Positions 8,801 to 33,358 of a DNA stretch of 33,358 nt are shown here, one piece after another. How positions within the stretch are numbered: the first letter of the stretch is position 1; each line of letters opens with the position of its first letter. The DNA comes from a virus, in IMG/VR virus record IMGVR_UViG_3300037961_004875, positions 3,971 to 37,328 of that record. One strand, written 5' to 3'. Made by a program: the position numbers and the translations under genes. Under the pieces are notes generated by a model that made no database searches, was not told where the DNA came from, and saw only the letters and a program-made list of their open reading frames with translations.

Positions 8801-11800
8801 GTTGATCTGCGAGAGAATATGTATCTACATTCAATGTTGTTGATGTAGAAGAATAAACTTCGGGAATAATTCCGCCATCAACATAAGGATTATCTGGATA
8901 AACCTCTGTTGGAGCGTCGTAATCACCTCTTCTATGATTTGATTGAGCGACTCTAAAGTTAATTCTAGGATTTGTGTCTTTTCCTTCTTCACCAAGACCT
9001 TTACTAATAACTCTTCCTTGAACTGTTTCTCCAACCTGGAATGTGCCAGAACTCATTGAGATTTCAATTAGTTTTGGTACACAGAACTTGGTGACATCTT
9101 TACCATCAAAGAAAGCATAAATTCTAGTGCTTGGTTTTAAGTTTGCTGCATAGAATTCAACATTTCTTGATCTTACATTAGAAATAACTTCAGTGCTAAG
9201 AACTTTATCGCCAACAGAAACTTCCTCAAAAGTTTCAGTAACTACATATTGCGTACCAGTTCTTTCCTTAATTCCACTTTCGATCGTATCAGTTACATCC
9301 TGCTCAATTGGTTGAGTAGTAGTCTGTTGAACCCATGCCGCAGGTCCACCCGATCCACCATTAATCCATCCACCTCGTCCAAATGTGCGACTACTAGTTG
9401 TAGTAGACTCTCTAGTATCAGTTTGAGTTGTAAATGTACCAGACCAAGTTGTCTCCCAAGAATTCCATACTTCAGGAGCAAATCCAGTTTCTGGATCGAC
9501 ACCATACTTTTCTTCAGCCTCAGACATGATCTGAGAATAGTTACCAATAGTATCGATTGTTCTTGCTTCTACTCTAGTTTGATCAACCCAGTTATCAGAA
9601 GCTGGTGTTAAGACAATTGTTCCTTGCCAGAAACTAATCAAGAAAGGAGTTACACTCTCAGTTCTGGTTGCAAAATTTTGTGTTATCCACTCAACATCAG
9701 AATAATCAAGACTGAGGATATCATTTTGCTTTCTAACATTAGTTCCATCTATAGCAGCAGTTCTCTTATCCTCTGTGGGATCAACATCTACGACAGGACC
9801 TGTTTGTAAGGAGAATGAGTTCGTACTATGTTTTGGTCTAAGAATCTTGTTAACCTGATCAATACTATTATTTCTACCAAGTCTCAAATCTTGAGTAGAG
9901 AATGATGTAAAGTTATCTACAAAGAATCCAGACTTAAATCTATTGAGACCGTTTGCATCAGGTATAAATTGATTAGCAGTATTTGTTTCAAGTATAGAAA
10001 GAGTTGTATAATACTCTAAGTTTCTGATTCTATCTTCAAGTTTCTTGATATCTTTCATCTGATATCTCTTGTACTTCAAGAACCTAACAGATGCTTGTTG
10101 TACATTATGAAGATATGGAGGATACTCTATTGTGGCAAGTTCAATTGCATTAGCAGGAGACTCTGGTTGTGCTCTCTTCGGATCGTCCGAAGGAGTTCCA
10201 AACTTCATTTGAAGTTTTCCGTCTTTATGTAAATAAAGTCTATCAATTCTTCCTTGATAATATGCATAATCTATGAAAATGGTTTCATTAGATGCAAGAA
10301 TATTTGGAACAGAATTTCCTGTAGCATTGAAGGATCTTCCGAGGAATTCTAAAGGAGATCTAGACCCCTCAGATACTGTATAATTGTTAACTCTTGGTCT
10401 TAAATCAATGAGGTCTGTATTCAATACTCCGTTGATTGCTTTAACTTCAGTGGAGTAATCAAAGTCATTATAGGATTCGACAGTAACAATATCTCCATCA
10501 TCAGTAGGATCAAATGATGCGGCCTTATAGTATACTTTAATTTTATTCTTCGGAGCGTCAGAATCACTCTTTCTGGTTATAAATCCATGATTATAGATTG
10601 TTCCTCTTTGTCCAGATCCAAAAGTATAATTAGATGAAATATTAAATGAAGTTGTATCTAAATCACTTACTCCACCAGAAATAGAAGATTCCTGGAATAC
10701 AACTGTTTCTCCTTCTACAAACTTAAAGTTGTTCTTAGGAAGATATCTGAGAGTAGTTGCGTCTTTAATTTCTGCAAATACTGCAACTGCACCACTTGTT
10801 TGACCAACAATCAATTCTCCGATAACCATGTCACCAGTTGAGGCACTAGGTCCATTTAACAGAGTGAGAGACATTTCTGGAGCACCGAAGTTAGAGTCGG
10901 TTAAGTCAGCATCAGATGTTTCATATATTGCATGAATTTGAATAACATCTGGGACATTTAATGATATAACATTGTCCTGAACTCTAGTTCCGAATGGATA
11001 ATCTCCATAAGTTAATCCATCATTTAAAGTAGTTGATCCAATTCCAGAAGCTGGACTGATAGATTTATCAACTACTAAAGATTTTACTCTATCTTTAATT
11101 TTTTTCTTTGCTTTTACATTTGTCTTTCTAACACTAGTAATAAGTTGAGCACCAGTGTCATCTGCTCCTAAACCTCTGATTTGAAGTTCTCTGAGGTTTG
11201 CAGAGAATGCAAAATTATTTTGGGTCAGTGGTTCAGTTGTTCCATCTGATCTGATAAGAGAATATCTTTCATCAGAATATGAAAGATATGTTTCTCCTTC
11301 TGGAAGAGTAACAGTAAGTAAACTAGTAGAACTTAATTGATTATTTGTGATATCTACTGTAAATGGTTTTCTAAGTATCAACTCAGCATCAGTAAGATCA
11401 ACTGCAGCAATATTTTCATTTGGCAATTCTGTATAGAAAGTTGTATCAGATGAAGCATCTAATGCCGTAGTAACAACTTTAAAATCAGAAATAGTGAGGG
11501 CGTTTGTTGGAAGTTTTCCACTAGCTACACCAGGAACGGTTGTTACTCCAGTGATGGAGATATCAGATGTAGTAACACCTACAACTCTTGCTAAGATTGG
11601 ATCAGAAGATGAAGAAAGGTCGGAATATTCAACTAAGTTGTTCTCTTTTATACTACCTGGGAATAATGTATTTGCACTAGTAACAGTACTAACTCCTCCA
11701 GAGAAACCACTAACCTCAGCAGCTCCTATGGTTAATACTGGAGTTTGTATAACATTAGCACTAAATGTGTTAATACCTAGTTTATTATTTCCGTTTGGTC

Positions 11801-13523: not shown

Positions 13524-13529
13524 AATTCT

Positions 13530-15083
13530 TTAGAACTGCAAGATAACTTTTATGTCTTCTTTTTGGTTTGACGATCTTGTAATCGAAGGTCTATTATCTA
13601 CGTATATAATATTACCAGAATGCTGTCTTACCTCTGGGGATGCAACACCTGTAGTGAAATCCATTCCAAGATAATATGTACGATTATTTATCGTGGTTTT
13701 GTTATCGCTAAATGCAGCATCAATACTTAAAGGTAACCCTGTAGATGGAGTAATTGCTAACGATCCAGTTCCAGTTGGAGTTCCAGTAAAACTTTGCAAT
13801 TCATATCCATATGTTGGATTAGTAACTCCAATTCCAGTAGATGTAAATCCTGCTAAAGTTCTATCTTGCCAAAGTTTTAAAACACCAGTATTTTGGTCAT
13901 AATTTACAACCCTACCAACTGCAGTAACACCAGATCCAACTGTTTGAGTAACGAAGGCATCAGAAGTAAAAGTTGCTTCACTGTATCCTACCCCAGTCAG
14001 TTTTAAAGCAACTACTGCACTTGCTTTATCCGCAGTTAAGACTGATCCTCCAGCTGGAGAAAGAGGATTTTCTACGATACCAATTCTTGCGAATTGATTG
14101 CCCGTAATAAAATCTGGATTTTCATTATCACTTTCAATTCTGGAATACATCAGAACACTGTATGCACCTAATTCTCTGTAGATATCAGCACCGTGACCAC
14201 CCTGTGGAGTGATGATGACATCAAAAGTTGGTCTAGTTGTTCCGACTGGAATTCCAGCAGCCTCAAAATCAAGAGTTCCAAAAGTATATCCAGATCCTTG
14301 AGCAGATACAGAAACTTCGTTGATTTTAGAGTCTCCGTCAATAGTAACAGTACATGTTGCTCCTGTACCATCTCCCTTAATAGGAACTCCAGTATATGTC
14401 TGATTTGCTGTTCCCAAATCAGCACCACGATTAGTTATCGTAACAATTTTAATAGAACCATCTACAGCATTTTCTCTAACTAGAGATGTATCATTACTAG
14501 TACTCCAGTCTGTAGGAACTGGCATGAAGTCTGTAGAATCAAATTTAGTAATGTCTGCTGGTTTGATAGTATAGAGATATTTCCAAATATATCCATCACC
14601 ACTAGTTCCAGCTGCCTTTGGTTCTAAGTCCGTGAAAGTTGGTTCATCTAGAGATGGTCTACCAAGAGTATTTTCTGGGTTTGTTCCATTTTGTAGGCAA
14701 ATATAAACTCTATAGTCGCTATTAAGGACATAGAAGTTTGAATTATATAAATTAGTAGATCCTGAAACTGGAGCAGTATTTGATCTACTATAATCAGGTC
14801 GGTACATATCATAGGTAGTGCCTGAAGACCAGATTCTCTTAGGAATAACCTGTCTTACATCAGTAGCGTTAATCCTCTTCAGAGCGATCATTGTATTCCA
14901 ATAATCGTTCTCCTGATCAAAATTATCTTTTGGTGCAGGAGGAGTATCATTCCATGTAGAGGAATAGTCTGTCGGATTTGGAAGTCCGACAAAAGAATAA
15001 TAAGAGTTGCTGACATCAGCAACTCCTGCGACAAATTTTTTCGCGTTTAATATTCTTACCTGATCAGTTATAATGGCAGCCAT
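13530..15083 (-). CDS. 8: Baseplate wedge protein gp8
   Basis: This 517-aa protein is likely a wedge subunit of the baseplate. The T4 gp8 landmarks are present: ENDYWNTMIALKRI and VRQVIPKRIW (T4 has MWTHMMGTVKVL and LDAVIPRRDW), GDGYIWKYLYTIKPAD (T4 GDGYVWEYLFEIPPD), and the C-terminal RQHSGNIIYVDNRPSI...KEDIKVILQF (T4 RHSGEMIYMENRPPI...EEINILF). T4 gp8 is 334 aa. The extra length is mainly two inserted regions, a GxGY-type pair at about residues 215-285 and a GVTA...GVLKLW segment at about 385-420. The gene lies between gp7 and the DUF4815 gene with a 6-base downstream gap. A TAATAAATAAG box sits in the upstream gap. Confidence 0.92.
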   Translation of the reverse strand: MAAIITDQVRILNAKKFVAGVADVSNSYYSFVGLPNPTDYSSTWNDTPPAPKDNFDQENDYWNTMIALKRINATDVRQVIPKRIWSSGTTYDMYRPDYSRSNTAPVSGSTNLYNSNFYVLNSDYRVYICLQNGTNPENTLGRPSLDEPTFTDLEPKAAGTSGDGYIWKYLYTIKPADITKFDSTDFMPVPTDWSTSNDTSLVRENAVDGSIKIVTITNRGADLGTANQTYTGVPIKGDGTGATCTVTIDGDSKINEVSVSAQGSGYTFGTLDFEAAGIPVGTTRPTFDVIITPQGGHGADIYRELGAYSVLMYSRIESDNENPDFITGNQFARIGIVENPLSPAGGSVLTADKASAVVALKLTGVGYSEATFTSDAFVTQTVGSGVTAVGRVVNYDQNTGVLKLWQDRTLAGFTSTGIGVTNPTYGYELQSFTGTPTGTGSLAITPSTGLPLSIDAAFSDNKTTINNRTYYLGMDFTTGVASPEVRQHSGNIIYVDNRPSITRSSNQKEDIKVILQF

Positions 15084-15101
15084 TTTTGACGGACTTTTTT
15101 A

Positions 15102-15112
15102 CTTATTTATTA
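15102..15112 (-). promoter_or_regulatory. Late-promoter-like box before gp8
   Basis: TAATAAATAAG on the minus strand lies in the 36-base gap between gp7 and gp8, about 20 bases before the gp8 start. Confidence 0.45.
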
Positions 15113-15119
15113 CGAAAAA

Positions 15120-18100
15120 TCATGTGAATTTTTTGAACCTAATATATCTACTTCTATAAAGTTTTGAAGAAGTAGATATGCCAGTCACCTCGTTTGTTCC
15201 TATTCCAGACATGGTATGTGCTGGATATGAAATTTCTTTGGTTCTAGCCTCTAGATTAACTTTACCCCAGGAGTATTCACCGAGGAATGCTCCAGTTGTA
15301 AGTCCAGGGTTAATTCCCAAAGGTGCCAGATTAGTGTTTACACTAACTTTAATTACATTTGTACTAACCCCAGCAATAACTTGAGTTTCAAGTTCCATCT
15401 TATTGACAACATATACATTATCAAGGAACTCTGATCCAATTCCAACTACCGTGGCATCATCAGTTGCAAGAGCACTTATACTTGTTGATGCTGCACCTAT
15501 ATTAGAGTTTCTTATGATGAAGTAGTCTCCTGTAGATATTCCACTTAAGGTTACTGCAGTTCCAACTAAATTAGTATCTCTCATTTCAGAATCTAAAGGA
15601 ATGTGTAAGTGGAACATCATTCCTGTTGCACCGACACCAATAGTAGTAGTTCCAAGTCCAACAATTATTCCAGAATCTCCAGAATATCCAGTATTTTGTA
15701 TAACTTCACAAGACTCTGTTTGTTCTGCAGGAGGTCCAATCAAGACTAAAGGTGGATTTGTAGTTGTATATCCACTTCCAGGATTGGTAATAGTAACTCC
15801 AGTAACAACTCCATTGGTGATCGTTGCCTCTGCAGTTGCTGTTACGGATGTAGAACCTATACCAACACCAACACTTACATCTGGTGTTGTTGAATATCCA
15901 ACTCCACCATTATTAATTACGATTGAAGTAATAGTTCCAGCAGAAGAAACTACAGCAGTCGCGGCCGCCCCAGTAACAACTATTGGATTTACTAATTTTA
16001 CTTCTTTTTGAATCGTGTTTCTGAATGTAGCTTGTGCATTTTCATTGTTAAGGTCAAACAGTGGTCTTAATCTATCAACATAGATCGCAGTAGAACCAAC
16101 ACCAACAGAACTAATAATATTTGCTACTGGATTAATGACAGGTTCATAAATTTCTCTATCCTTTCCAACTTCCTGACCATTAATAATTTTATCTTGAGTT
16201 TGTCTACACCAGGTAACTGGTCTTTCAAAAGTGGTATCAGTGGTGTTTCCTGGTCCAAAATATGGGAGAGTTTCACACTTATCAACATTTGTGATAGAAC
16301 TGATTGTTCTAGCATCTTCTTGTTGATAGGGTTTTTGTCCTAAATCTGGATTATAGTTTAAAGTAACTTCATCTCCATATTTGATGGTTTCAATAACTTC
16401 TCTATCAATAACATCTAATTCGTCTCCACTTCCCTTATAGAAACAAATATTGAGAGTATCTCCAAGTTTCAATGGTTCTGTAAAGGTTATTTGAGAACCA
16501 CCATTAAACAGATATGAATCACCTGGTTTTTGAAGTATTTCATTTACAAATACTAAGAGCAACTGATCGAGTTCAATCTTGGATCCCTTTGATTTATTAA
16601 TAGATACTGGAATACCAGCCTTGACCAAGGGGAAGTCAATTCTAGTACCATCAATGAAATTGGTAACATCATCAAATGTGTCAAGAACACCCACAGACCA
16701 TCCAGTAAACTCATCGTTGATTACTTTTTCAACTTGAATTTCAAATATATCTGTGGATACGAAAGAAGATGTAGTGGGAATTCCAGTGGTTCCACCAACA
16801 GAAACTGTTAGTCTTTCTCCATTACCATAACCATATCCAGTGTTGTTGATTTCAAAAGAAATTACACTAGATCCTTGACCAACAACAACATCAATAGTAG
16901 CGTCTGTTCCAAATCCAGTTGTTCCAGAAACATAATCTAATGGTAAATTAGTATATGAAAGTGGAGAATCAAATATGATGTCAAGTGGTTTTTTAACAGT
17001 TCCACATCTTGCATAGAAGTGTGCGCGAGTGGAAACACCAGAGTTTATTTCAAAAGTGGTATTATCAATGATTCTGAGAATATTTGATCCCTGTGATGCG
17101 GGATCAAATCCACTGGCAGAGTTATTATTTACTCTAGGTGCGATAATAACTGGTTGTGCAGTTCCACCACTTTGATAGTAAGTCGCAACTGTAGAAGTTC
17201 CAACATTGACCTCAAATTCTGTAGTATTATTGACTGCAAGAACTGAAGTTCCGCAATATGCGGGGTCAGTTGTTCTTGGATAAATGTGAGTACTAGCACC
17301 GTTATCCAAATCACAAGTCATTCCAATACCAGTTAACAAGACATCACTTCTCTGACCTGATATATTAAGATTATGTGGTGTGGCAGTTGTAACGGTCATA
17401 ATGCCAGTGATACTGCTATATCCAACATTGGTTATATTGACTGCTTCAGATCCACTGTAATCGCAGGTGAATGCAATTCCAGAAACATTAATTGTTTCGT
17501 TTACAGATAATCCATGGGCGGTTGATGTTGTAATAGTAGTAACTCCAGTTACATTATCATAGAGTACATCTGAAATGCTGCGTGGAACATAGAATACTCT
17601 ATCAGTTGTAATAGCAACTGAAGTTACATTACCATCAGTAGCAGTAGCAATTCCTATTGGAATACGGGTAGTACCATTAGAATCTGGAAGTTCTGCCGCT
17701 ACGAAAATATCTGTTTGTATACCAGATCTATAACCAGAACCACTATTACCAATCGATACCGAAGTGATAGTGCCTGCAGCGGATACAACTGCTTCTCCAC
17801 CTGCAGTAACCAGAGGCTGCAGTCCAAATCCTTCGCTAGATCCAACAGAAACCAACATTCCACCTCTTGGGAAGGTGCTTAGACCAACATCATTGGTAAT
17901 GTTTCTAGCAGTTCCATCAAAAGTGATAGAGGTTATACCAGAACTTTCGGATAGAGTGAAGTTATTTTGCTCTCCAAGAACCTGGAATATATCATTAACC
18001 AATACAATTGCACCTTCGTTATTAATTCCAGTAATATCACTTCCATTAGACTTCAGAGTAAATTCATTTTCAACTCCATTGAACTGATCTGAAAGATCGT

Positions 18101-21100
18101 CAAATATGTAATTTTTATAGTAAGTCTCATTAGATGTATTCTTCTGAGCCGTTCTCATGAAACTTCTTCCTTGGAACATAGAACTAGTTGATATTCCAAC
18201 ATAGTCTCTTTGATCTGGGGGACTTGTTGGAGTTCCAACAGGAACATTTCCAAATGGCGCTTCACTAAATGTCAAAGTGTTAGCGACAATATTGTAATTT
18301 CCAACAACTTTTGTCACCAGATCACCAGAAGAAATTCCAGTTTGAATATTCGTTCCCATCCATCCTCTACGGACTGAGAGTCTGTTCGTGCTTCCAATAC
18401 CAACACCCTCAACCTTCATGATTTCGCCACCAACCTTAATTAAATCTCCACCAAAGAATGAGGTGATTCCAGTAAAGTCAACAACATTATCTGTACTTAC
18501 TACATCGTCCTCTAAGGTTGTTGTAACTGCCGTAGAGACTATTGGGGACTGAATAAGATTGTCAATAGCAACGAGTACTTTTGCATTTTGATTCGTTGCA
18601 GTAAATGTATGAGCAGCTCCAACTCCAAGAGTACCAACTGAAGTTAAATCGAGAACTTGTGGGATAGATTTCAGAGCATCTTCCGCACTTCTAGCAAGTT
18701 TAATAGTATTATCATTAATCTTAACTGCAAATATTCCAGTTGTAGGAAGTAATGCGGTAGTAAGTCCAGTAACTGGGAATGTAGTTAAAGCAATACCAAT
18801 CGCTGCAGTGCTTCCAATGCCTGGGTTAGCATATTCAATTTGCTCTCCTGTAACATAGAAGTGATTTGGAATTGTAATGCTATTAGAAGAGGTATTAATA
18901 CCGCTTCCAGTAATTGTTCTTTCAAAAATCTGGTCATTCTTATGAGTCAAATTAAATGATCTCTTAATATCTCTCTCAGTTCCAGTATAATCACCAGATC
19001 CAGTCTCTATAGTTCCATTAATAAAATCAATTGTATCTTTCGAATCATCTTCAATTCTAAGAGCATTTGTATATACATGAACAGTTGCATCAATTCCAGC
19101 AACTGGCGTAAACAGAACTTGAGTTGTTGCAGCAAGTCCAACGGAGTCGGCAATCAGTCTAGAACCAAAAGTACCGAGTCCAGAATGAGTTTGAATATTT
19201 GCCCATTCAGTATCAAAAGTTTCCCCAGTTGTTGCTTCCTCAATATGATCATCCACAACAAAATATTCTAAAAATTCATAACGATCATTTGTAGTATCAT
19301 GTACCTGAATCATTAAATACCCAGCATCATATCTGTCTTCAGCAACATCTAAATGACTTGGATATTCAGTGATAACATTTTCAGTCGGAGATCCAGATGA
19401 TGCAATATTTGTAGTCGTGGACTGCAATCTAGCATGTTTCAGATCTAGAGTTGAAATACCAGATGATACTGAAGATAAACCTACAACTATAGCATTAACT
19501 ACAGCGTTTGTTCCTATTCCAGCTGGGTTGAAATCAACTTTAATATTTGATCCATCGAGATATGCAGTATATGTTCCAAATCCAGTTGCACTAAGTCCTC
19601 CAGGAGAGGTGGTTAATTTACCATACTCAAGAATAGAAACATCAGTTCCATCATGGAGAATGTTCAGTTCTTGTGCTTCAAATTCAGTTCCATTAATTGT
19701 TGCACCATTTCCAAGAGATGGATTAGTAACATCTGGAGTAATTTCAACGAGGACTTTTAGAGAATGATATGTATTGCCAATACTAACAATGGTTGCAGGA
19801 GAACCAGAGTTAATAATAGTGCTATCCGAATCGATTAAGACGCCTCCAATCGAGGTAGATCCTGTACTCAGATAATTATCATTTAAATTATAAGAAATTG
19901 ATGTAAGATGATAATCATTTACCGATGACTTGGTTGGGAAGAACAATAACTGGCCATCCGATCCAGATATTGAGAAATCAAAAGATCCTTGATCATATAC
20001 AGATTCAACTCTTGCATATTGATTGAGATATCCAACATTTCCGTCATGAATGAGGTCAACAATTAATCCTTGTCTTTCTTGAGTAAATCTCTTATCTTTC
20101 AAATAAGTGAAGTACTTTCTAAATCTGACATCATCCAGATTAAATGAATCAAGTATACTGAAAGCAGTTGCTCTAGGATTACTGTTAAATTGTGGAGAGA
20201 TATCATCAATAGAGAGAACTCTGTTTCCAGATGATTCAGTAAAATCTGTTAAAATCTTGTTATCAAGAATGATTTCATCAGAAAGAATACTACCATCCGA
20301 AAGATTTACATTATTTTCTGTAGCAATATCAAAATCAAAGACACAATTAGTATCTACAAATCCATCTAAACTACTTACAATAGTAACATCGGTCAATTCA
20401 GTAGAAATGCCAACTTTCATAGATGCATCTAAATTCGTTGACTCAATCTGAAGATCACTGAATTTTCTATATCCAATAGTGTGATTTACCGAGGATACTA
20501 CATCATTCCAGTCATCAAATGGAATAGTGCTCTTCAGTGAATATGAGAAGTTTTGATAATAGAAATTATCTTGGATTCTTTGTAAATTATCATTTAAGAA
20601 TCCAGAACCAGTTTGATTTCCGCTGAATATCTGAGCAGAAACATTTGTCTCAAAGTATGATTCATATGATGTTACATCTAAGGCGGTTCCGGAAAGTTCT
20701 GAAGTAAGTCCTCTTATAACTTCTCCTTTTACAAAATTATCAGAAGAGAGCACTCTAAGGGTTTTTGTTGGTCTATCCCAACTTTGAACAATACCTTCTT
20801 TTCCATTAGTGGTAACTTTTTCACCAGTAAGATAATCGCCTGTAGTTAATAATACATCAAAGGTTGGGAAATTCTTTTGTGCAATTATCTGTCCAGAAGA
20901 ATTAATTACATCAAATTCTCCTGGAATTTCTCCTTCACCCAATTCGTTGCTTAAATTATATGCAACGGAGCCAATTCCACCAATATTAGGAGTTACCGCA
21001 TTAAGAGTGAATAATTTATATCCATAGTTTTTTGAATTATAACCTTTAATAGTAGTACCAACACCAACAGTACTAATATTCTCTATCATCACTTGATCAC

Positions 21101-24100
21101 CAACTTCAAATGGGAATGAAGTGCTAAATCCAATCGCCATGGTTACAGTTACATCTTTAGTAACTGTATTGAATCCAACTGTACTAATTCCAACTCCATT
21201 AGTATTCTTTGTTGGCAATACTGTTGGGGTAGAATTATTAATTCCTCTAGTATTACTTAAAATAGTTACCTCTGAGTCTCCTAAAGAATACCTAGTGGAA
21301 ATATCAGTAATTTGATTGCCAGTTTTACCATCAAAGAAAAGTAACTCTGGTGCTGCAGAATATCCTCTTCCTCCAGAAACTATATCAATAAAATCAACTT
21401 TAGCAAAAGAATCAACATTGATAATTTGTGGAAGAGAAGCACTTGGTTTTAATGTACTATCAGTTGGGAAATCATATCCAACATCATTAATTTTTACTTT
21501 CTCAATAATTCCAATATCTCCACTAACCGATACTAAATCTCCTCTTACTCCCTCAATAGAATTGATAGACTCAATTGAAGGTAAAGTGGTGTAGTTCTTA
21601 CCAGCACTAGTAACCTCTACTGTGGATATTGGTCCAGATGTATGAGTGCAATCAGTTGTATAAGTTATACTAGATGAAGTTGATACATACGAGTTTGCTT
21701 CGGGATTTTGAGGCAATTCAAATTCAAAGAAATCAGATCCTGCAATGGAGACTCTTCTACTTCCGTTATAAACACTATTCTGCGTTATTATAGTGCTATG
21801 ATTTAAAATTTCAGAATCTTGTATTATTTCTGATTTTACAATAGGAAGATTTGTATCAGAAACTGGATCTAAGCGATAATATAACCTTTCAGGGGTTGTA
21901 TTTCCAATAGAAACTGATACCTTAGCAGAAGATGTTCCAGGAATTCCTGTTCTAGAAACACTAAAAGTCGAAGAAGACTGATCTGTTTCCCAACGACGAG
22001 TATATGTGTCGTCCAGATAGAAATTGAGTCTGAATGCAGAATAATCAGTAGCCTGTTGGACAAATCCTAAGGAAGAATCCGAAAGATCAAAATCTAATGA
22101 TGAACTTCTAAAACATTTAATAGAAGGATTAACAAGTCCAAACTCACCAAGTGATTTACTTGCAATATCTACAACACTTGGTATTAGTTTAGTGGAATCA
22201 TGGTGCGTATTAGATAATTTAAAGTTATTATCATCAACTTTTACAATATAATAAATTTTATCATTTACCAATCCTTGACAAGGAACGGCTGAAGAGTGAA
22301 TTACTTTATCACCACTTTCATAACCATGATTCGATATAGTAATAGTATTGGTAGTGCTATTAACTCCTACAGCACTAAAAGTCTCTATTCCAACAAGTGA
22401 TCTTCTATTCTCATCATTATATTTTACAACATATGTTGTTGCAAATGATGGATTAACATCAATGTCGATAAAGTGTCCTGCGCGAATACCATGATTTACA
22501 TCAGTGGTAACGGTTACAGTTCTTTTTGCTAAATTTCCAGTTATATTATCATAATTTGTTGCAAAACTATGGCTATTACCAACACCAACTCCTGTAAAGA
22601 ATAATGTTGTAGTTGTATTTCCTATTCCAATGAATCCGCCAGTAGATCCAAGTCCAACTCTTTGAGTTGCAATACCAATTAAATCTTTTGAAATTTTAGC
22701 AACAAAAAGTTGTTGTCCATCGGTCAGAGTTTTATCTACACCAATTTCTCCATTGTCATTGTAGACAATACCTTGACCACCATTTGAAGAATATGTAAGT
22801 AAATCGCCTGTCTGTAAGTTATGATCCTTAAAATACAGAGATTTGATTGGAACTGCGAGAGAACTCGCTCCAAAAGTTGTTCCAAGGCCAACAGTATTTA
22901 ATCCAAAAGAATCAAATTGCAATACTGATCCAATTCCAACAGCAGTAGTACCAAGACCTACAGTTTCTTGTGGTTCAAAATATATTTCCTTATTTCTTTG
23001 GAATTCATACTTAGTTTTGAATCCAGAATTTATCTCAAACCTTCTTGGTACTTCGGTTATAATGGTTCCTATTGTATGAATAGATCCAACAGTATTATTT
23101 ACTGCTCGCAGAACTCTAAATCTAGAATTTTCCTTATCTACATTTAGAACTTTTACTTGTTCTGTGCCAATACCCAGAATATCATTCGGTACAATGTTTG
23201 AATCAGTTAAATTTGACGATACATTAAAGAAAGTTACTAATCCAGTGATATTTGTATTTCCAATAGCAACTCCTATAGTACCCTTCCCAGCAATTGGGAA
23301 CTTCTCACTTGAAACTCCTATAGAGTAGAATCCTTCAATTTTTGATGATGTCGTAGAAATACCACTAACATTAACAATATCTAAATCTATGAAATTATGA
23401 GGAGATGTTGACTCTACGAGATATCTTCCTTTCTTGGTTGAGGGAATAAATTCGACATTAGGAATTTCACTTATAGCAGCACTAATACTATTAACAGGTC
23501 TTCCCTGCAGTCTGGAAACTCTTCCAGCTGCTCCAAATCCAGTTACATCTTCAGAGAAGTTTAAAGTATCTCCAACTCTATAATTATCTCCAGCACTCTT
23601 GACATCTATTCTGGAAACTCTTCCTCTATTTGTAGATAAAATTTTTCCTGTCTGAGATAAACCATTTGGAGAATATATGTAAGGATATTCAATACCACTT
23701 TCTCTTAAATTATAAGAAATTGTGTTTCTGCACCAATTATTTGCTGCAATATCATAATCATCTTGATTAGAAGATTTTGCAAAATTAAACTCATTTGGAG
23801 TAGAATGATATTTGTCTCCTAAAACATATGGGAATGTTGGTATTTTGTAATTTTCAAACAATCCAGAAGATTCGATACTGTCGGGATTGACTGTAGTAAA
23901 GTAAGCATAAGTTCCATTTGGATATTCTGGTGTTATACAAAATCTTCCATTATTTCTATCAAGATAACTATCGTCATTATTCTCATGATAAGTAAAATCT
24001 TCTACAAAGAATCCTAATGGGAAAATAGATACTGATGGACCGTTAATACGAGTTGTATTAAGTCTATAACTAGACTTCATCAAAGTGACTACTCCACCAT

Positions 24101-27100
24101 CACTATTAGAGTATCCATATGGACCATAAATTGGATTTCCATCATAAGCCCAACCAATGATTGGGGAGTGGTCAGTAAATTCTGTTTCTTGAGAATTAAC
24201 TAGTTTTAGATCCGGCTTTCCATATAAGATATCTCCACCTTCAGAGACCGAATAGATCATTTCTCTTAACGGTCTAGGTGTATACAATGAGTAACATTGC
24301 AAACCATAGTCATCACTTAAAGATCTTTGTGCAACGGTATCATCAGATTTTATTAAATTGTTATTGTATAATTTTTCAAATAAATTTACTCTCCATCTTT
24401 GTATTTGTGGAATAAATGAGAAATCGTCCTCGGATGGAGTTATCTCAATAGTTACATCTCCAGAAACATATCCTGTTCCAGGTTCTATAACTTTTACTTC
24501 ACTGAGTCTTCCATTTGAGAAAATTGGAGTTAAAACACATCCAATACCAGTTGTAGATATTATTTCTAAGTTTGGAATAGATGTATAGTTAGATCCAATA
24601 TTTTCAATTATAACTTCTATAATTCTTCCATCAGCAGTAACAATAGGTTTAACCTGAGCATTTTCTCCAGATCTTACAGTTACCTCTGGTAATTTGGTGA
24701 AATTAATAATTTCACTAGTTCCATATCCAGATCCTTTATTAGATAAATGTATTGAAGTTAATTCTCCTCTGAAAATAGGTTGAACTTCAGCTTTATATGC
24801 GCTAGATTCAATTCCAGTAACAGTTGCTATACCAACTGGACCTTCTACTGTGACCGATATTGGAGGATAATTGAATATCTGTGTTCCAGTACCATCACTA
24901 GTTAAATCAACATATTGTTTTGTTCTATAGAAGAAGTCTTCATCTGTTATTGGACCAATTTCAGATAATCTAAATTGGTTAGAATCAATTACTGTAGCAT
25001 AGTAATTAGTTCCATCACTCAATCCACCAATTGCACTTGTTCCAGCAGAGTATCTCAATACTTCACCAGATTTATAATCATGGTTTTCTATAGAAATAAT
25101 ATCGGATGAGGTATTGATTCCTGCAGAAGTAACGGTTCTTTTTTTGTTCTCATAACCAATTCCGCTATCGACAATGTTTATTGAGTCAATGACAGATTTT
25201 GAAGATGCACACTCTAAAGTATGTTTTCCAATACCATGAGATGATAAAACGACAGTATTAATGCCAACAATTGCTTCCTCTAAAGTGTTATGCAATTTAA
25301 TTGTGGTGGCATCAATAACCTCTGCAAAATATGTTGCACTGGTTGATAATCCACCAACTACTTGTTGAGAATTTGGATTATAAACTATTTGCTCACCGTT
25401 TCTAAATTTGTGATAGGTTGAGAATCCAATAGTAGAATTATTAACACCTATAGAAACTCTTGCAGATTGTACATCTGAGAAAAATTCTACTGAGTGAGAG
25501 ATTAATTTCGTATTTACTAAAGCTCTAGCATTAGATCCATTTCCGCCTGTTATTGAAACGATAGGAGTTTCTGTGAAATCAAATCCTCTATCAATAATTT
25601 GTAACTCTCTTAATTCTCCACTAACTGCGAGGAATCCAGATGCACTAGATCCAGATGGATCTGTTATTACTAAATCTGGTGGATTGATTATATCAAATCC
25701 ATTTCCTGGAGACGAAATCTCAATTTTTTCAATTTTTCCAGTATGAACTGTGTCTTTCGACTTATAGTTTAAAATCTCAACACCGTTAACTAAAATTCCA
25801 GTAGCTCCTGGTGCAGTTTCAACTTCAACATCATTATTAATTGGAGTAGAAATTTCTCTATAAAGTCTTTGAGAATCTACAACTCTACCAGATGTTTCTG
25901 ACAACTCAATAGTATTGGAAGTAACCGTAGTTGTCGATACATTTACAAAATTTGATGTATACAAATTAGCTGGAGATTTTGCTAATTTGATATTATTACT
26001 ATCTACTCTTTGAATATAATATATTCCTTCACCACCAGTATCTCCGCCAAACAAAGAAGATTGAATAGAAGTTTCAACTATATCTTCCCCATCAATTGTA
26101 ATAGTTGTTTGAGTTCTCTGAGGGGTGTAATATACAGATTCTCCACTGTAGAATCCGTGGTCATTTATTGTGAAAGTATCTCCAGAAAATGTACCACTAA
26201 AAGTTTTTAAGGATTTTGCTGCAACAAGTGGTATATCTTTAAATGATGGTAAGGAGTTCGATGCAACTAAAAGAGAATCTCCATATTGTTTTTTATAGAT
26301 ATTTTGAACATTTGCATGGAATTTATTAACTTCTGAAATAGTTGAGGACTTTACTTTCCTTAATTCTCTTAGTAAAGTGTAAGTTCCTGCAACATTAATA
26401 GTTCCAGTAGTTTTAATTACTACAATTTTGTCTGTGATAATATCAAGAACTTCTGCATCATGGGATTCTACACCAGTTGTATTCTCAATTTTTACAGAAT
26501 CTCCGAGAAATAAGTAATTTTCTTTATTTAAAGTTAACTTATAAGTTTTTGGCGAAACATTACTAATCAATTCAATGTTATTAATTGCATATTTAACTGG
26601 ATTATTATACAACCAGTTTTTAAATTTGAAAGTAGTATCTTCAACACCAAGAGTTTTTACATCAAATTGATCTTCTGCTTTGTAATCAAATATTCCATCT
26701 TGCTTTGAAAATCCAGATAAAACTGGAGTAATACGAACTTCAGTAAGAGGTTCTTCAGAAGGTTTGACAGAAGCAAAATCTTCTGTACTTAAAGTGTCTC
26801 CATCAATTAGAGTATCTGTAATATTGCTACAACCTAAAAACTGCGTTATTGTTTTAGATGTATAAGAAACAATACCAACTTTATCTGTAATTGCATTTGG
26901 ATAATCTACATAGATTTCTCCAGAATTTGGAAATCCTATTGTTGAATCTACATCAATGAAGGTGGATCCAGCAGCAACATTTCCAATAATATGAGTTTTT
27001 GGAGCTACTTTAAATGTTCCTATAGTCGATCCTTGAGATCTAGAGTCTCTATTATATCCATCATCAAAAGAGAGTTTATAAAAAGTTTTTCCAGCTCCTG

Positions 27101-27932
27101 CATTTACTTTTTCAATATCGTATATTGCAGTATATGTCTCATCATTATCACCTTGGAATATAGTTCTACTTTCTAGATCTGAAGGATCTCCATTAATCGA
27201 TTCTACTAAAAAATTAGAAGTTACTAAGTTATTAGCATTTGAAGGTGTAAACAGATAATCTCTTGGTTTTGTTATCTCAACATTTACACCATAAAGTGCT
27301 TTAAATAAAATTTTATAAGAATCGTCTGTTCCTTTACTTGTGTAAAAATCTTTTGCTTGCTTTATAAAAACATTCTGATTTACATTAGACGATAAAGGTC
27401 TATCCGATAAACCTGGTAGAATTTGAATCTTAGTTTTGTTTAAAAATTCTTTTAAGAAAAGGCAACTTAAGTTTTCAATAGTTGCACCATCTTTATGATC
27501 AGCAGCTGAAGTAGAATTAAAGACTAGATTCTCTGGATCAGAATCTGATTTATATGAAGTTACTCCAATAAATCCTCTAATACATCCAGTAAAAGAAGTT
27601 TCAGTTTTCCCAGTATAAGTTATTACTTCATCGCCTATTTTTAGAAGGCCATAAGAATCTGGAAATTTATCCGTTGTTGAATCATCTAAATTTATTGTTG
27701 TTGCAAATTCGTCAAGATCACCACTCAAAGTTACAAAATGATTTAAATTAGTCTGCTCATCAACCTTTATATACTGATCAATGTTCTGTATTAAGTCAAC
27801 AGGACCACTTTTATACTCTTGACCAATATAATATTGCTTTAAAAATTCAGAGATAAGAGGGAACTCATTCTCAACATAAGTTGGAAGCTGGTTCTTAACG
27901 ATGCTGCTAAACTTGATTCTTGTTTCTGCCAT
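15120..27932 (-). CDS. 7: Giant baseplate wedge protein gp7
   Basis: This 4270-aa protein takes up over a third of the window. The anchor for gp7 is DFYTSKGTDDSYKILFKALY, followed by GVNVEITKPRDYL (about residues 190-225). It matches FYSTKGIEASYKFLFKVLY in the C-terminal part of T4 gp7 (1032 aa), the region that joins the wedge core. The gene order 6-7-8 agrees. After this comes a long chain of beta modules: about 14 GxGY...P copies, at least six HG[FY]..GE copies and IGDE...RG segments. A YHYH-like domain lies at about 1190-1350 (GWAYDGNPIYGPYGY, then GRFCITPEYPNGTYAYF). A Cys-bearing pair (GIAFTC, GIGMTC) lies near 3470-3560. The product ends SSKLYRSRYIRFKKFT. It has no membrane segment. 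The long chain may reach from the wedge core to the baseplate rim or fibres; that is inference. Confidence 0.88.
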   Translation of the reverse strand: MAETRIKFSSIVKNQLPTYVENEFPLISEFLKQYYIGQEYKSGPVDLIQNIDQYIKVDEQTNLNHFVTLSGDLDEFATTINLDDSTTDKFPDSYGLLKIGDEVITYTGKTETSFTGCIRGFIGVTSYKSDSDPENLVFNSTSAADHKDGATIENLSCLFLKEFLNKTKIQILPGLSDRPLSSNVNQNVFIKQAKDFYTSKGTDDSYKILFKALYGVNVEITKPRDYLFTPSNANNLVTSNFLVESINGDPSDLESRTIFQGDNDETYTAIYDIEKVNAGAGKTFYKLSFDDGYNRDSRSQGSTIGTFKVAPKTHIIGNVAAGSTFIDVDSTIGFPNSGEIYVDYPNAITDKVGIVSYTSKTITQFLGCSNITDTLIDGDTLSTEDFASVKPSEEPLTEVRITPVLSGFSKQDGIFDYKAEDQFDVKTLGVEDTTFKFKNWLYNNPVKYAINNIELISNVSPKTYKLTLNKENYLFLGDSVKIENTTGVESHDAEVLDIITDKIVVIKTTGTINVAGTYTLLRELRKVKSSTISEVNKFHANVQNIYKKQYGDSLLVASNSLPSFKDIPLVAAKSLKTFSGTFSGDTFTINDHGFYSGESVYYTPQRTQTTITIDGEDIVETSIQSSLFGGDTGGEGIYYIQRVDSNNIKLAKSPANLYTSNFVNVSTTTVTSNTIELSETSGRVVDSQRLYREISTPINNDVEVETAPGATGILVNGVEILNYKSKDTVHTGKIEKIEISSPGNGFDIINPPDLVITDPSGSSASGFLAVSGELRELQIIDRGFDFTETPIVSITGGNGSNARALVNTKLISHSVEFFSDVQSARVSIGVNNSTIGFSTYHKFRNGEQIVYNPNSQQVVGGLSTSATYFAEVIDATTIKLHNTLEEAIVGINTVVLSSHGIGKHTLECASSKSVIDSINIVDSGIGYENKKRTVTSAGINTSSDIISIENHDYKSGEVLRYSAGTSAIGGLSDGTNYYATVIDSNQFRLSEIGPITDEDFFYRTKQYVDLTSDGTGTQIFNYPPISVTVEGPVGIATVTGIESSAYKAEVQPIFRGELTSIHLSNKGSGYGTSEIINFTKLPEVTVRSGENAQVKPIVTADGRIIEVIIENIGSNYTSIPNLEIISTTGIGCVLTPIFSNGRLSEVKVIEPGTGYVSGDVTIEITPSEDDFSFIPQIQRWRVNLFEKLYNNNLIKSDDTVAQRSLSDDYGLQCYSLYTPRPLREMIYSVSEGGDILYGKPDLKLVNSQETEFTDHSPIIGWAYDGNPIYGPYGYSNSDGGVVTLMKSSYRLNTTRINGPSVSIFPLGFFVEDFTYHENNDDSYLDRNNGRFCITPEYPNGTYAYFTTVNPDSIESSGLFENYKIPTFPYVLGDKYHSTPNEFNFAKSSNQDDYDIAANNWCRNTISYNLRESGIEYPYIYSPNGLSQTGKILSTNRGRVSRIDVKSAGDNYRVGDTLNFSEDVTGFGAAGRVSRLQGRPVNSISAAISEIPNVEFIPSTKKGRYLVESTSPHNFIDLDIVNVSGISTTSSKIEGFYSIGVSSEKFPIAGKGTIGVAIGNTNITGLVTFFNVSSNLTDSNIVPNDILGIGTEQVKVLNVDKENSRFRVLRAVNNTVGSIHTIGTIITEVPRRFEINSGFKTKYEFQRNKEIYFEPQETVGLGTTAVGIGSVLQFDSFGLNTVGLGTTFGASSLAVPIKSLYFKDHNLQTGDLLTYSSNGGQGIVYNDNGEIGVDKTLTDGQQLFVAKISKDLIGIATQRVGLGSTGGFIGIGNTTTTLFFTGVGVGNSHSFATNYDNITGNLAKRTVTVTTDVNHGIRAGHFIDIDVNPSFATTYVVKYNDENRRSLVGIETFSAVGVNSTTNTITISNHGYESGDKVIHSSAVPCQGLVNDKIYYIVKVDDNNFKLSNTHHDSTKLIPSVVDIASKSLGEFGLVNPSIKCFRSSSLDFDLSDSSLGFVQQATDYSAFRLNFYLDDTYTRRWETDQSSSTFSVSRTGIPGTSSAKVSVSIGNTTPERLYYRLDPVSDTNLPIVKSEIIQDSEILNHSTIITQNSVYNGSRRVSIAGSDFFEFELPQNPEANSYVSTSSSITYTTDCTHTSGPISTVEVTSAGKNYTTLPSIESINSIEGVRGDLVSVSGDIGIIEKVKINDVGYDFPTDSTLKPSASLPQIINVDSFAKVDFIDIVSGGRGYSAAPELLFFDGKTGNQITDISTRYSLGDSEVTILSNTRGINNSTPTVLPTKNTNGVGISTVGFNTVTKDVTVTMAIGFSTSFPFEVGDQVMIENISTVGVGTTIKGYNSKNYGYKLFTLNAVTPNIGGIGSVAYNLSNELGEGEIPGEFDVINSSGQIIAQKNFPTFDVLLTTGDYLTGEKVTTNGKEGIVQSWDRPTKTLRVLSSDNFVKGEVIRGLTSELSGTALDVTSYESYFETNVSAQIFSGNQTGSGFLNDNLQRIQDNFYYQNFSYSLKSTIPFDDWNDVVSSVNHTIGYRKFSDLQIESTNLDASMKVGISTELTDVTIVSSLDGFVDTNCVFDFDIATENNVNLSDGSILSDEIILDNKILTDFTESSGNRVLSIDDISPQFNSNPRATAFSILDSFNLDDVRFRKYFTYLKDKRFTQERQGLIVDLIHDGNVGYLNQYARVESVYDQGSFDFSISGSDGQLLFFPTKSSVNDYHLTSISYNLNDNYLSTGSTSIGGVLIDSDSTIINSGSPATIVSIGNTYHSLKVLVEITPDVTNPSLGNGATINGTEFEAQELNILHDGTDVSILEYGKLTTSPGGLSATGFGTYTAYLDGSNIKVDFNPAGIGTNAVVNAIVVGLSSVSSGISTLDLKHARLQSTTTNIASSGSPTENVITEYPSHLDVAEDRYDAGYLMIQVHDTTNDRYEFLEYFVVDDHIEEATTGETFDTEWANIQTHSGLGTFGSRLIADSVGLAATTQVLFTPVAGIDATVHVYTNALRIEDDSKDTIDFINGTIETGSGDYTGTERDIKRSFNLTHKNDQIFERTITGSGINTSSNSITIPNHFYVTGEQIEYANPGIGSTAAIGIALTTFPVTGLTTALLPTTGIFAVKINDNTIKLARSAEDALKSIPQVLDLTSVGTLGVGAAHTFTATNQNAKVLVAIDNLIQSPIVSTAVTTTLEDDVVSTDNVVDFTGITSFFGGDLIKVGGEIMKVEGVGIGSTNRLSVRRGWMGTNIQTGISSGDLVTKVVGNYNIVANTLTFSEAPFGNVPVGTPTSPPDQRDYVGISTSSMFQGRSFMRTAQKNTSNETYYKNYIFDDLSDQFNGVENEFTLKSNGSDITGINNEGAIVLVNDIFQVLGEQNNFTLSESSGITSITFDGTARNITNDVGLSTFPRGGMLVSVGSSEGFGLQPLVTAGGEAVVSAAGTITSVSIGNSGSGYRSGIQTDIFVAAELPDSNGTTRIPIGIATATDGNVTSVAITTDRVFYVPRSISDVLYDNVTGVTTITTSTAHGLSVNETINVSGIAFTCDYSGSEAVNITNVGYSSITGIMTVTTATPHNLNISGQRSDVLLTGIGMTCDLDNGASTHIYPRTTDPAYCGTSVLAVNNTTEFEVNVGTSTVATYYQSGGTAQPVIIAPRVNNNSASGFDPASQGSNILRIIDNTTFEINSGVSTRAHFYARCGTVKKPLDIIFDSPLSYTNLPLDYVSGTTGFGTDATIDVVVGQGSSVISFEINNTGYGYGNGERLTVSVGGTTGIPTTSSFVSTDIFEIQVEKVINDEFTGWSVGVLDTFDDVTNFIDGTRIDFPLVKAGIPVSINKSKGSKIELDQLLLVFVNEILQKPGDSYLFNGGSQITFTEPLKLGDTLNICFYKGSGDELDVIDREVIETIKYGDEVTLNYNPDLGQKPYQQEDARTISSITNVDKCETLPYFGPGNTTDTTFERPVTWCRQTQDKIINGQEVGKDREIYEPVINPVANIISSVGVGSTAIYVDRLRPLFDLNNENAQATFRNTIQKEVKLVNPIVVTGAAATAVVSSAGTITSIVINNGGVGYSTTPDVSVGVGIGSTSVTATAEATITNGVVTGVTITNPGSGYTTTNPPLVLIGPPAEQTESCEVIQNTGYSGDSGIIVGLGTTTIGVGATGMMFHLHIPLDSEMRDTNLVGTAVTLSGISTGDYFIIRNSNIGAASTSISALATDDATVVGIGSEFLDNVYVVNKMELETQVIAGVSTNVIKVSVNTNLAPLGINPGLTTGAFLGEYSWGKVNLEARTKEISYPAHTMSGIGTNEVTGISTSSKLYRSRYIRFKKFT
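15144..15179 (-). repeat. Perfect 12-bp inverted repeat at the 3' end of gp7
   Basis: Arms ATATCTACTTCT (15144-15155) and AGAAGTAGATAT (15168-15179) are fully complementary around a 12-base loop, inside the last 20 codons of gp7. No U-tract follows on the minus strand. Confidence 0.8.
15735..15935 (-). repeat. Tandem GxGY module pair near the gp7 C-terminus
   Basis: Two adjacent copies are INNGGVGYSTTPDVSVG and ITNPGSGYTTTNPPLVLIG. They are linked by the strand SVTATAEATITNGVVTGV, which also shows the A.AT element seen between copies in gp14. This is the clearest tandem pair in gp7. Confidence 0.8.
21330..21640 (-). repeat. Run of three GxGY modules in gp7
   Basis: Three diverged copies follow each other at about residues 2098-2200: VTSAGKNYTTLPSIES, INDVGYDFPTDSTLKPS and IVSGGRGYSAAPELLFFD. 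Each begins with an alternating hydrophobic strand (STVEV, EKVKI, DFIDI). Confidence 0.75.
24440..24780 (-). repeat. Run of three GxGY modules before the gp7 YHYH domain
   Basis: Three copies (about residues 1050-1165) read LSNKGSGYGTSEIINF, IENIGSNYTSIPNLEIIS and VIEPGTGYVSGDVTIEITPS. They lead into the YHYH-like domain. Confidence 0.75.
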
Positions 27933-30665: not shown

Positions 30666-30675
30666 CTATTTATTG
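30666..30675 (-). promoter_or_regulatory. Late-promoter-like box before the 60-aa gene
   Basis: CAATAAATAG on the minus strand contains the stop codon of the 237-aa gene and lies about 15 bases before the 60-aa gene start. Confidence 0.4.
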
Positions 30676-31383
30676 AGGGTCTAAATGACGCCCTTCTTGT
30701 GATTTATACATATCTTCTAATTTTTCTTCTTCATTTTTACGCTCTTTTGCTGTTTTCCAGAAATATTCGTCCTCTCTACCCATTCCAAGTCGCTCAAAAC
30801 CATTTTCAACACTATAATATTCAGTTGAAACCTTAAAATCAGGCATTTTTGGTTCTTCAGGTGTCAAACTATTGTCAAAAATCCGCATTCTATTGTTTGG
30901 ATACAGTGCATACTGTCCATTATTCAATTCAATAAGGTTATGTGACTTATGTTCAGCTGGATTTTCACTTGTTGCATAGTCAATTACATCAGGATCTTGA
31001 TGATAATTGTCTAATGTACAAACATATGTACCTTTTTGAATACCAAAGTCGCGTGTATACAGTTCATAATCCATACTACCAATGAATTGCTTCGTAACTG
31101 ATACCACACCATAGTCCATACAGTTCCAAAACTGTAAATTAGGTAAATCCATATCAGGATTTGGTGTTTCAGGTTCACTTACAAATGCACTAATTGGTAA
31201 TTTATCGTACATTGCCGCATATTCAGGTAAATATGTCTCAAAATAAAAAGCGCGTCCAGGAATCGACTTAGCCGATACCCAAACGCCCTTAACAAATTCA
31301 CCATGACCAAATTGATGATCAGTGAGATATTCTTTTCTTACCCATACCTCAACCGAGGGGAGGTTGCAAATAAGTGCTGCCAT
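30670..31383 (-). CDS. 237-aa conserved-looking unknown protein
   Basis: The product starts MAALICNLPSVEVWVRKEYL. It is rich in Tyr, Trp and acidic residues, with blocks HGEFVKGVWVSAKSIPGRAF, LQFWNCMDYGVVSVTKQF and LNNGQYALYPNNRMRIFDNS. The last 40 residues are highly charged and helical (KTAKERKNEEEKLEDMYKS). I see no catalytic motif and no transmembrane segment. Proteins of this size and style recur in T4-like cyanophages near the baseplate genes, so it may be an assembly or regulatory factor, but I cannot assign a role. A GTAAATAAG box that overlaps the preceding stop lies about 20 bases before its ATG. Confidence 0.75.
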   Translation of the reverse strand: MAALICNLPSVEVWVRKEYLTDHQFGHGEFVKGVWVSAKSIPGRAFYFETYLPEYAAMYDKLPISAFVSEPETPNPDMDLPNLQFWNCMDYGVVSVTKQFIGSMDYELYTRDFGIQKGTYVCTLDNYHQDPDVIDYATSENPAEHKSHNLIELNNGQYALYPNNRMRIFDNSLTPEEPKMPDFKVSTEYYSVENGFERLGMGREDEYFWKTAKERKNEEEKLEDMYKSQEGRHLDPQ

Positions 31384-32851: not shown

Positions 32852-33028
32852 TTACCAGCGGACAGGCTTACTCAGGTCCTCAACATAACTGTCAATCAAT
32901 CGCTCAGATCCTTCGAGTTCAAAAAGATCCTCCCATGAAATCTGATGCGGGTCAAAGTCTTCCATCACCTCAAGATCCAGAGTGATTCTATAGCGTTGCT
33001 TCTGTGCCTGACTGATAGCGACTGACAT
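32852..33028 (-). CDS. 58-aa small protein, unassigned
   Basis: The product starts MSVAISQAQKQRYRITLDLE and continues VMEDFDPHQISWEDLFEL, an acidic, probably alpha-beta protein. It has a GGAG site 6 bases before the ATG. Two promoters lie immediately upstream, a consensus sigma70 promoter and a TATAAATA late box, which makes the gene credible despite its length. Similar short proteins are frequent in cyanophage early regions. Its function is unknown; a host-directed early role would fit the promoter but is only inference. Confidence 0.7.
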   Translation of the reverse strand: MSVAISQAQKQRYRITLDLEVMEDFDPHQISWEDLFELEGSERLIDSYVEDLSKPVRW

Positions 33029-33055: not shown

Positions 33056-33084
33056 AGTATAGAATGGACTGGGGATATTGTCAA
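33056..33084 (-). promoter_or_regulatory. Sigma70-type promoter for the 58-aa gene
   Basis: On the minus strand TTGACA (33079-33084) and TATACT (33056-33061) are separated by 17 bases. It matches the consensus at 11 of 12 hexamer positions. The ATG is 27 bases downstream of the -10. Confidence 0.85.
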
Positions 33085-33096
33085 TCTTCCAATCAG

Positions 33097-33104
33097 TATT
33101 TATA
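33097..33104 (-). promoter_or_regulatory. T4-type late promoter box
   Basis: An exact TATAAATA on the minus strand, the T4 late consensus recognised by a gp55-type sigma factor. It lies just upstream of the sigma70 promoter of the 58-aa gene, so that gene may be read both early and late. Confidence 0.6.
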
Positions 33105-33158: not shown

Positions 33159-33187
33159 TTGACATTTCTGCGAGAGTGTGATAGACT
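33159..33187 (+). promoter_or_regulatory. Plus-strand sigma70-type promoter
   Basis: TTGACA (33159-33164) and TAGACT (33182-33187) are separated by 17 bases. It points out of the right end of the window, back to back with the minus-strand promoters, and implies a plus-strand transcription unit beyond the edge. Confidence 0.7.
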
Positions 33188-33264
33188 GCTCGCTTAGATC
33201 ACAAGACCTAGACACATTTCCAGAGAGCATTTGTGAGGACATTAGTGACAACAATTAGAGAGAC

Positions 33265-33308
33265 TTTTCCACAGATAACTAATACTTTTCCACACACATT
33301 GTGGAAAG
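33265..33308. other. Cluster of DnaA-box-like sites, possible origin
   Basis: Two direct TTTTCCACA sites (33265-33273 and 33286-33294) and one inverted near-copy, TGTGGAAAG (33300-33308), lie within 44 bases. The last two form a perfect inverted repeat, TTTCCACA / TGTGGAAA, with a 5-base spacer. TTTTCCACA is the usual cyanobacterial DnaA box. An AT-rich stretch (about 33320-33358) follows, as in an unwinding element. Confidence 0.45.
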
Positions 33309-33358
33309 AGATAAACAACGCATATATGTTTTTTAATACATTTTTTTATATAATCTTT

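Follow-up and report, generated by a model that had tools for sequence, protein, structure and literature searches.

A cluster of host-type DnaA boxes near the 3' end of a viral contig is, by sequence comparison, one module of a conserved and mostly non-coding element. We consider the element to be, on balance, probably a replication origin of the marine T4-like cyanophages, in which a promoter and unwinding element of the T4 style are combined with boxes for the DnaA protein of the host. What the sequences establish are the parts of the element, their conservation, a nearly unique genomic position, boxes that match those of host DnaA and a spacing typical of DnaA sites. T4-like cyanophages rank with the most abundant viruses in sunlit ocean waters. 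Among them, PMC2984593 gives a predicted origin for Syn9 only, and the element provides a precise, single-place and conserved origin candidate in the culturable model phages Syn9, S-PM2 and S-SM2. If this reading is true, a coupling of phage replication to host DnaA, and hence to host growth and light, would follow.

The stretch of DNA analysed (hereafter, the window) comprises 33,358 nucleotides, corresponding to positions 3,971 to 37,328 of the IMG/VR record IMGVR_UViG_3300037961_004875. It takes up the 3' part of a viral contig of 37,328 bases and ends together with it. The contig encodes T4-like structural genes and its nearest relatives are the Synechococcus phages S-SM2, Bellamy and SynMITS9220M01. 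Two exact copies of TTTTCCACA lie on the forward strand at positions 33265-33273 and 33286-33294, the second being 21 nt (two helical turns) past the first, and a third, inverted copy with one mismatch (CTTTCCACA) lies on the reverse strand at 33300-33308, 14 nt past box 2. A preliminary description of this DNA had reported two box copies and one inverted near-copy in 44 bases, followed by AT-rich bases, and both observations were confirmed: the 50 bases after the boxes (33309-33358, forward strand) are 84% AT compared to 64% for the window, and only 0.26% of the 40-bp stretches in the window match the AT-richness of the last one. This block, with a core of TATGTTTTTTAATACATTTTTTTATAT starting at 33325, is a candidate DNA unwinding element and is incomplete because the window ends where the contig ends. 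The window has a single exact TTTTCCACA pair within 30 nt, and none of 100 dinucleotide shuffles produced one; the pair is not due to chance. Single box-like 9-mers (TTWTNCACA) were not enriched in the window, with 4 observed vs 5.6 expected. An inverted third copy 13-14 nt downstream was seen again in relatives.

The element opens with a sigma-70-like promoter on the forward strand (33159-33187), which consists of TTGACA (33159-33164), a 17-nt spacer and TAGACT (33182-33187) with a TG before the -10 box, and agrees with the consensus at 10 of 12 positions. The conserved leader GCTTAGATCACAAGACCTAGACACATTT, delineated by comparison of loci, follows at 33192-33219 on the same strand, and the distance from the -10 box would place the transcript start near 33194-33196. 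The order of the modules in the window is promoter, leader (GCTTAGATCAC..ACATTT), boxes and AT-rich block. Alignment with S-SM2, Bellamy and SynMITS9220M01 returned TTGACA-17-TAGACT, GCTTAGATCAC..ACATTT, a variable part and the AT-rich block, with the boxes kept at the same position in S-SM2 and absent in Bellamy and SynMITS9220M01. TTGACA and the leader were kept across 104 IMG/VR and named loci, and the leader was matched by nhmmer in eight further sequences with E-values ranging from 1.3e-13 (S-SM2) to 7.6e-4 (S-8S56).

On the reverse strand, a second promoter-like site (TTGACA-17-TATACT, 33056-33084, 11 of 12 consensus positions) is divergent to the promoter of the element. The preliminary description had placed the boxes at a divergent promoter region, which holds for the predicted promoters (33084-33056 on the minus strand, 33159-33187 on the plus strand), although no plus-strand gene is visible between the element and the contig end. 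An ORF of 58 aa (32852-33028, reverse strand) flanks the element, and its DNA is kept in S-SM2, Bellamy and SynMITS9220M01. Direct reading also revealed a T4-late-promoter-like sequence, TATAAATA, upstream of the small minus-strand gene (33097-33104, reverse strand); the T4 late promoter consensus used for comparison was TATAAAT (PMC3037559).

Relatives were surveyed with a pattern composed of the promoter and leader and containing no boxes (TTGACA-N22-32-GCTTAGATCAC), which was run on viral contigs and matched 111 of these. Including the window and named phages there were 115 loci, of which 11 were dropped, namely nine chance matches without the element, removed by reading through the list, and two duplicates of S-SM2 and Bellamy. 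The remaining 104 loci were reduced to 86 with at least 300 nt and then to 74 non-redundant copies (class 1, which includes the window copy and a few named ones), and 270 nt of each were scanned for strict boxes, defined as TT[AT]TCCACA. At least one strict box was present in 38 of the 74 copies vs 11 of 2064 equal flanking tiles from the same contigs, and at least two in 36 of the 74 vs 2 of the 2064 background tiles. A total of 91 strict boxes was counted in the 74 copies, compared to a shuffle mean of 0.98. The sites first noticed in the window are hence conserved in related phages.

An exact search with a 24-mer of the AT block yielded 25 stretches, five already in the set and 20 new; the same promoter and leader were recognised by eye within 230 nt in 15 of the 20, S-PM2 among them. 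Queries from Syn9 (221 nt) and S-PM2 matched 148 and 72 records, respectively, many of which are strains of one phage, and the regions of 11 records were taken from these matches. Elements of the Syn9 and S-PM2 type have the order promoter, GTGCTAAG leader, AT block and boxes; in window-type phages the order is promoter, leader, boxes and AT block. Taken singly, most leader-to-leader comparisons of the two classes show weak similarity. A model of the Syn9/S-PM2-type leaders recovered the S-SM2 element as its best match in S-SM2 (E 0.0072), and in P-SSM4 gave a match with an E-value of 0.15, where reading of the sequence revealed the leader, the AT block and a GGATACTATCC repeat replacing the DnaA boxes. 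No element was found in P-SSM2 by either the leader nhmmer search or the Syn9/S-PM2 leader model.

Among 24 named isolates or single-cell contigs with the element (S-MbCM25, MS29 and Syn9 included), at least one strict box was found in 19 and at least two in 16, figures of which the former is biased upward because the queries contained boxes: the named isolates of the Syn9 and S-PM2 class came from BLAST with box-containing queries and those of class 1 from the box-containing window query. The host-consensus cluster is absent in the other five and in P-SSM4. The IMG/VR figure of 36 in 74 is free of that bias since the survey pattern contained no boxes. In Syn9, two strict boxes and one relaxed box lie in a region of small ORFs; gp86 and gp87, two short genes annotated across the box cluster (52477-52797), may be spurious. 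In S-PM2 (NC_006820, 19177-19333), tRNA-Asn and tRNA-Leu are annotated over the element. ARAGORN finds no tRNA in 12000-27000 of that genome, and the annotation looks wrong or shifted.

The 48 adjacent strict pairs comprise 37 direct, 11 convergent and no divergent pairs, and all 37 direct pairs in the 74 copies are spaced 11-12, 20-22, 32-34 or 42 nt, with 20-22 nt being the commonest (18/37). The direct spacings are near whole helical turns, i.e. the boxes are helically phased. Boxes 12 nt apart (a 3-bp gap) are present in S-PM2, S-CAM1, S-RIM32, Syn1, Sf-CH11, S-MbCM25 and MS29, and also in Syn9, where one box of the pair is relaxed. In vivo, E. coli DnaA is reported to favour box pairs separated by 2 or 3 bp (PMC11317965) and, judged by this comparison, the spacings are typical of DnaA sites. 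An inverted partner is common but often degenerate, and some other copies have palindromic cassettes.

The box itself is that of the host. According to PMC4674748, most cyanobacteria have TTTTCCACA as their DnaA box. In the Cyanobiaceae, 51 genomes were matched, 30 dnaN loci were fetched and 27 had enough upstream DNA; 17 of these 27 loci have TTTTCCACA in the 500 nt preceding dnaN, with 22 boxes in 13.5 kb upstream and 0 in the remaining 77 kb. Synechococcus RCC307 has no exact TTTTCCACA in its dnaN upstream region. A box-pair search of eight cyanobacterial genomes found one pair each in three of them; visual inspection recognised no dnaN next to these pairs, and they were set aside. We also looked for a DnaA encoded by the phages. 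The DnaA C-terminal domain was found in none of 14 cyanophage genomes and was present in RCC307, the only host searched alongside, which gives no support to a phage-encoded DnaA. As the box is that of the host and the 14 phage genomes lack the domain, the probable ligand is host DnaA, and its binding to the boxes is likely. Capture of host DnaA, one of the options raised in the preliminary description, is therefore not supported if taken to mean a dnaA gene carried by the phage; the host protein would need to be recruited. To our knowledge, DnaA has not been described to act in T4-like phages.

The other option raised at that stage, a simple repressor operator, becomes less likely because the inverted repeat is often degenerate and helically phased direct copies recur. 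In a wider form, the sites would serve a repressor or other regulator and resemble a DnaA box by chance, with swapped cassettes reflecting different operator specificities. Inverted copies do occur, and TTGATTCTCAAT, GGATACTATCC, TGTGTTACA and TTTATGC fill the same slot; we nevertheless hold this to be decidedly unlikely, given the exact host DnaA box with W tolerated at position 3 (TTATCCACA), the helical phasing and the double boxes with a 3-bp gap. Furthermore, the TTGATTCTCAAT array has a host counterpart in 0 of 61 Cyanobiaceae genomes, whereas TTTTCCACA has one.

Within the phage genomes, strict pairs within 40 nt were found only at the element in S-SM2, S-CAM1, S-PM2 and Syn9, where 0.003-0.03 would be expected. 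In 10 of 11 further cyanophages every strict pair is at the element or within about 1.1 kb of it; the eleventh, S-RSM4, has no strict pair, nor has T4. P-SSM7 (46602-46631), S-ShM2 (53068-53092) and S-RIM32 (61859-61880) each have another box pair, 0.25-1.05 kb away from the main cluster. In all five complete genomes measured (S-SM2, S-CAM1, S-PM2, Syn9 and P-SSM4), the distance from the element to gp25, on the 5' side of that gene, is 2.9-7.5 kb, and the leader and gp25 are on opposite strands. The least stable 40-bp stretch of the element belongs to the least stable 0.04% of the genome in S-SM2 and 0.008% in S-PM2; the AT block is moderately unstable in S-CAM1 and Syn9, in which 1.2% and 0.5% of 40-bp windows, respectively, are less stable.

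Clusters of this kind could also act as a sink, in which the boxes titrate host DnaA and so halt host replication or free nucleotides for the phage. Titration of DnaA by datA is known in E. coli, the phage clusters consist of the exact host box with no phage DnaA found, and extra clusters occur within about 1.1 kb in P-SSM7, S-ShM2 and S-RIM32. We regard a sink as unlikely, however, because there are usually only two or three boxes per cluster, these are bound to a fixed promoter and AT block, and other repeats replace them in about half of the class-1 copies.

GC skew was computed for S-SM2, S-CAM1, S-PM2, Syn9, P-SSM2 and P-SSM4. In the first four there is no sign change at the element, and the preliminary description had counted the lack of a skew change here against an origin; the detrended skew maximum is 6-11 kb from the element in three of the four and far off in S-PM2. 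For T4-like genomes in which one gene direction predominates, GC skew carries little information, and it was dropped as an origin marker for lack of a sign change. The original suggestion of a small bacterial-type origin is thus partly supported: it gains much from the boxes, AT block and promoter recurring at one place in many marine T4-like cyanophages, from the host box and from the DnaA spacings, but draws no support from the skew.

Among the closest known systems are origins of T4 itself. T4 oriF and oriG are described as a promoter with a downstream A+T-rich unwinding element, about 100 bp in total, whose transcript forms an R-loop (PMC3016281). The cyanophage element resembles oriF (also ori(uvsY)) and oriG in having a promoter followed by an A+T-rich unwinding element, in a T4-like phage and in the neighbourhood of gene 25, with the promoter reading into the unwinding element within about 100-200 bp. 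It differs in that oriF lies 3' of gene 25 with a transcript co-directional with that gene, whereas the cyanophage element lies 5' with its leader opposite, and in that T4 has a MotA middle promoter, no paired DnaA boxes and several origins. The promoter found here, TTGACA-17-TAGACT, is of the sigma-70 type and not a MotA-dependent middle promoter, which fits the absence of motA from cyanomyoviruses reported in PMC2984593. According to the same source, cyanophages of this kind use a T4-type replisome, and the RNase H gene is known among cyanomyoviruses only from S-PM2. It also states that Weigele et al. (2007) predicted a single theta origin in Syn9, a phage that carries the element.

Because the plan is the same as that of T4 oriF and oriG with DnaA boxes added, we propose an origin at which DnaA would aid the opening of the AT block; DnaA binding, melting, the replication start and a role of the transcript are what we infer from the arrangement. 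In this scheme, the host-type sigma-70 promoter would fire across about 100-200 bp containing phased host DnaA boxes and the AT-rich unwinding block, and the boxes would be bound by host DnaA. The AT-rich block could then be opened by DnaA together with transcription-made negative supercoiling or an R-loop. This would permit priming and loading of the phage T4-type replisome by one of two routes, from the leader RNA (as in T4 oriF) or on the strand thus opened.

The main rival to the origin reading is a DnaA-controlled early promoter, at which host DnaA bound downstream of the leader promoter would control transcription of an early or antisense RNA and replication would not start. The promoter is strong and the leader conserved, E. 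coli DnaA is reported to regulate transcription via paired boxes (PMC11317965), and in lambda DnaA-box-like sites downstream of pO are protected by DnaA (PMC3985674). A plus-strand gene, i.e. on the strand of the leader, comes after the element in S-BM3, S-8S56 and S-PRM1, and since it does, the elements of these three phages could be plain upstream regions. We nevertheless rate this explanation as rather unlikely, as the annotated genes flanking the element in S-SM2, Bellamy, SynMITS9220M01 and S-SCSM2R all share one strand, opposite to the leader promoter, and the AT-rich block, needless for a transcription switch, is conserved on either side of the boxes. Alternatively, the leader transcript would be the product of a non-coding RNA gene, the boxes being incidental. 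Conservation is indeed highest in the promoter and 5' leader, yet such a gene is very improbable: the leader RNA had no Rfam match, 40 leaders gave no consensus fold (RNAalifold energy 0), and leader length and downstream sequence are highly variable.

The lambda ori region with pO also resembles the cyanophage element as a whole: a promoter is followed by host DnaA sites in a region for phage replication. The two phages are unrelated, however, and lambda encodes an initiator (O) and a helicase loader (P) of its own, with sites that merely resemble the consensus. Cyanobacterial oriC shares the TTTTCCACA boxes in non-coding DNA, there upstream of dnaN, and is unlike the phage element, which comes with a promoter and leader of its own, contains few boxes, arranged in phased pairs, adjoins neither dnaN nor dnaA and belongs to phages with a T4-type replisome. 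DnaA-dependent plasmid origins (P1 oriR, R1 and pSC101) are composed of boxes, AT-rich DNA and repeated units. The phage elements are similar in their boxes, AT-rich DNA and repeats (the latter in the leaders of loci L224, L228 and L171) but differ in having no known Rep gene alongside and in belonging to a lytic T4-like genome. L224, L228 and L171 contain, in the first ~250 nt of the element, tandem copies of the leader unit ATCACAAGACCTGAGCACATTTAATTG..CATAAG with a period of ~33 nt, resembling plasmid iterons. DnaA-box predictions in lytic phages have a precedent, as Ori-Finder predicted DnaA boxes in a Pseudomonas phage (PMC11512268). Among the open-licence papers listed by our literature searches, none links cyanophage or T4-like phage origins to DnaA boxes.

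A strict DnaA box is absent from 36 of the 74 class-1 copies as well as from Bellamy, SynMITS9220M01, S-SCSM2R, Sf-FS3, S-RSM4 and P-SSM4, and about half of the class-1 elements carry other repeats where the DnaA boxes would sit. The alternative cassettes are TTGATTCTCAAT (two direct copies and one inverted), AGTAACTC/CAGATAC repeats, GGATACTATCC, TGTGTTACA and TTTATGC; the first of these may be Fur-like in appearance. Non-DnaA cassettes were seen in loci L196, L134, L123 and L151, in S-RSM4 (L461) and in P-SSM4 (51160-50950). As many copies have no strict boxes, DnaA cannot be essential to every version of the element, and the variety of cassettes is compatible with an origin that exchanges its initiator cassette and also with a regulatory region of changing specificity. 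We tentatively suggest, as a possibility held with less confidence than the origin reading itself, a modular phage origin in which a constant chassis of promoter, leader and AT block carries an exchangeable initiator-binding cassette, made up of host DnaA boxes in many phages and, in others, of repeats such as TTGATTCTCAAT and GGATACTATCC for other proteins. If so, a virus with a T4 replisome would give its first replication step to the host initiator and be tied to the cell-cycle or light state of the host. Such viruses would also switch the protein that fires the origin, and the cassette swaps would amount to a natural experiment in initiator switching.

Two further observations concern the annotation of the window outside the element. 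The protein encoded at 30670-31383 (reverse strand) matches PHROG 3704, labelled ferredoxin; the corresponding S-SM2 gene is purM (phosphoribosylaminoimidazole synthetase) in one record and ferredoxin in the other, so that the labels conflict. Very long ORFs of 4270 and 2556 aa lie beside the baseplate genes at 15120-27932 and 5853-13523 (reverse strand), and in S-SM2 a comparably long gene adjoining gp6 is annotated as the baseplate wedge initiator gp7.
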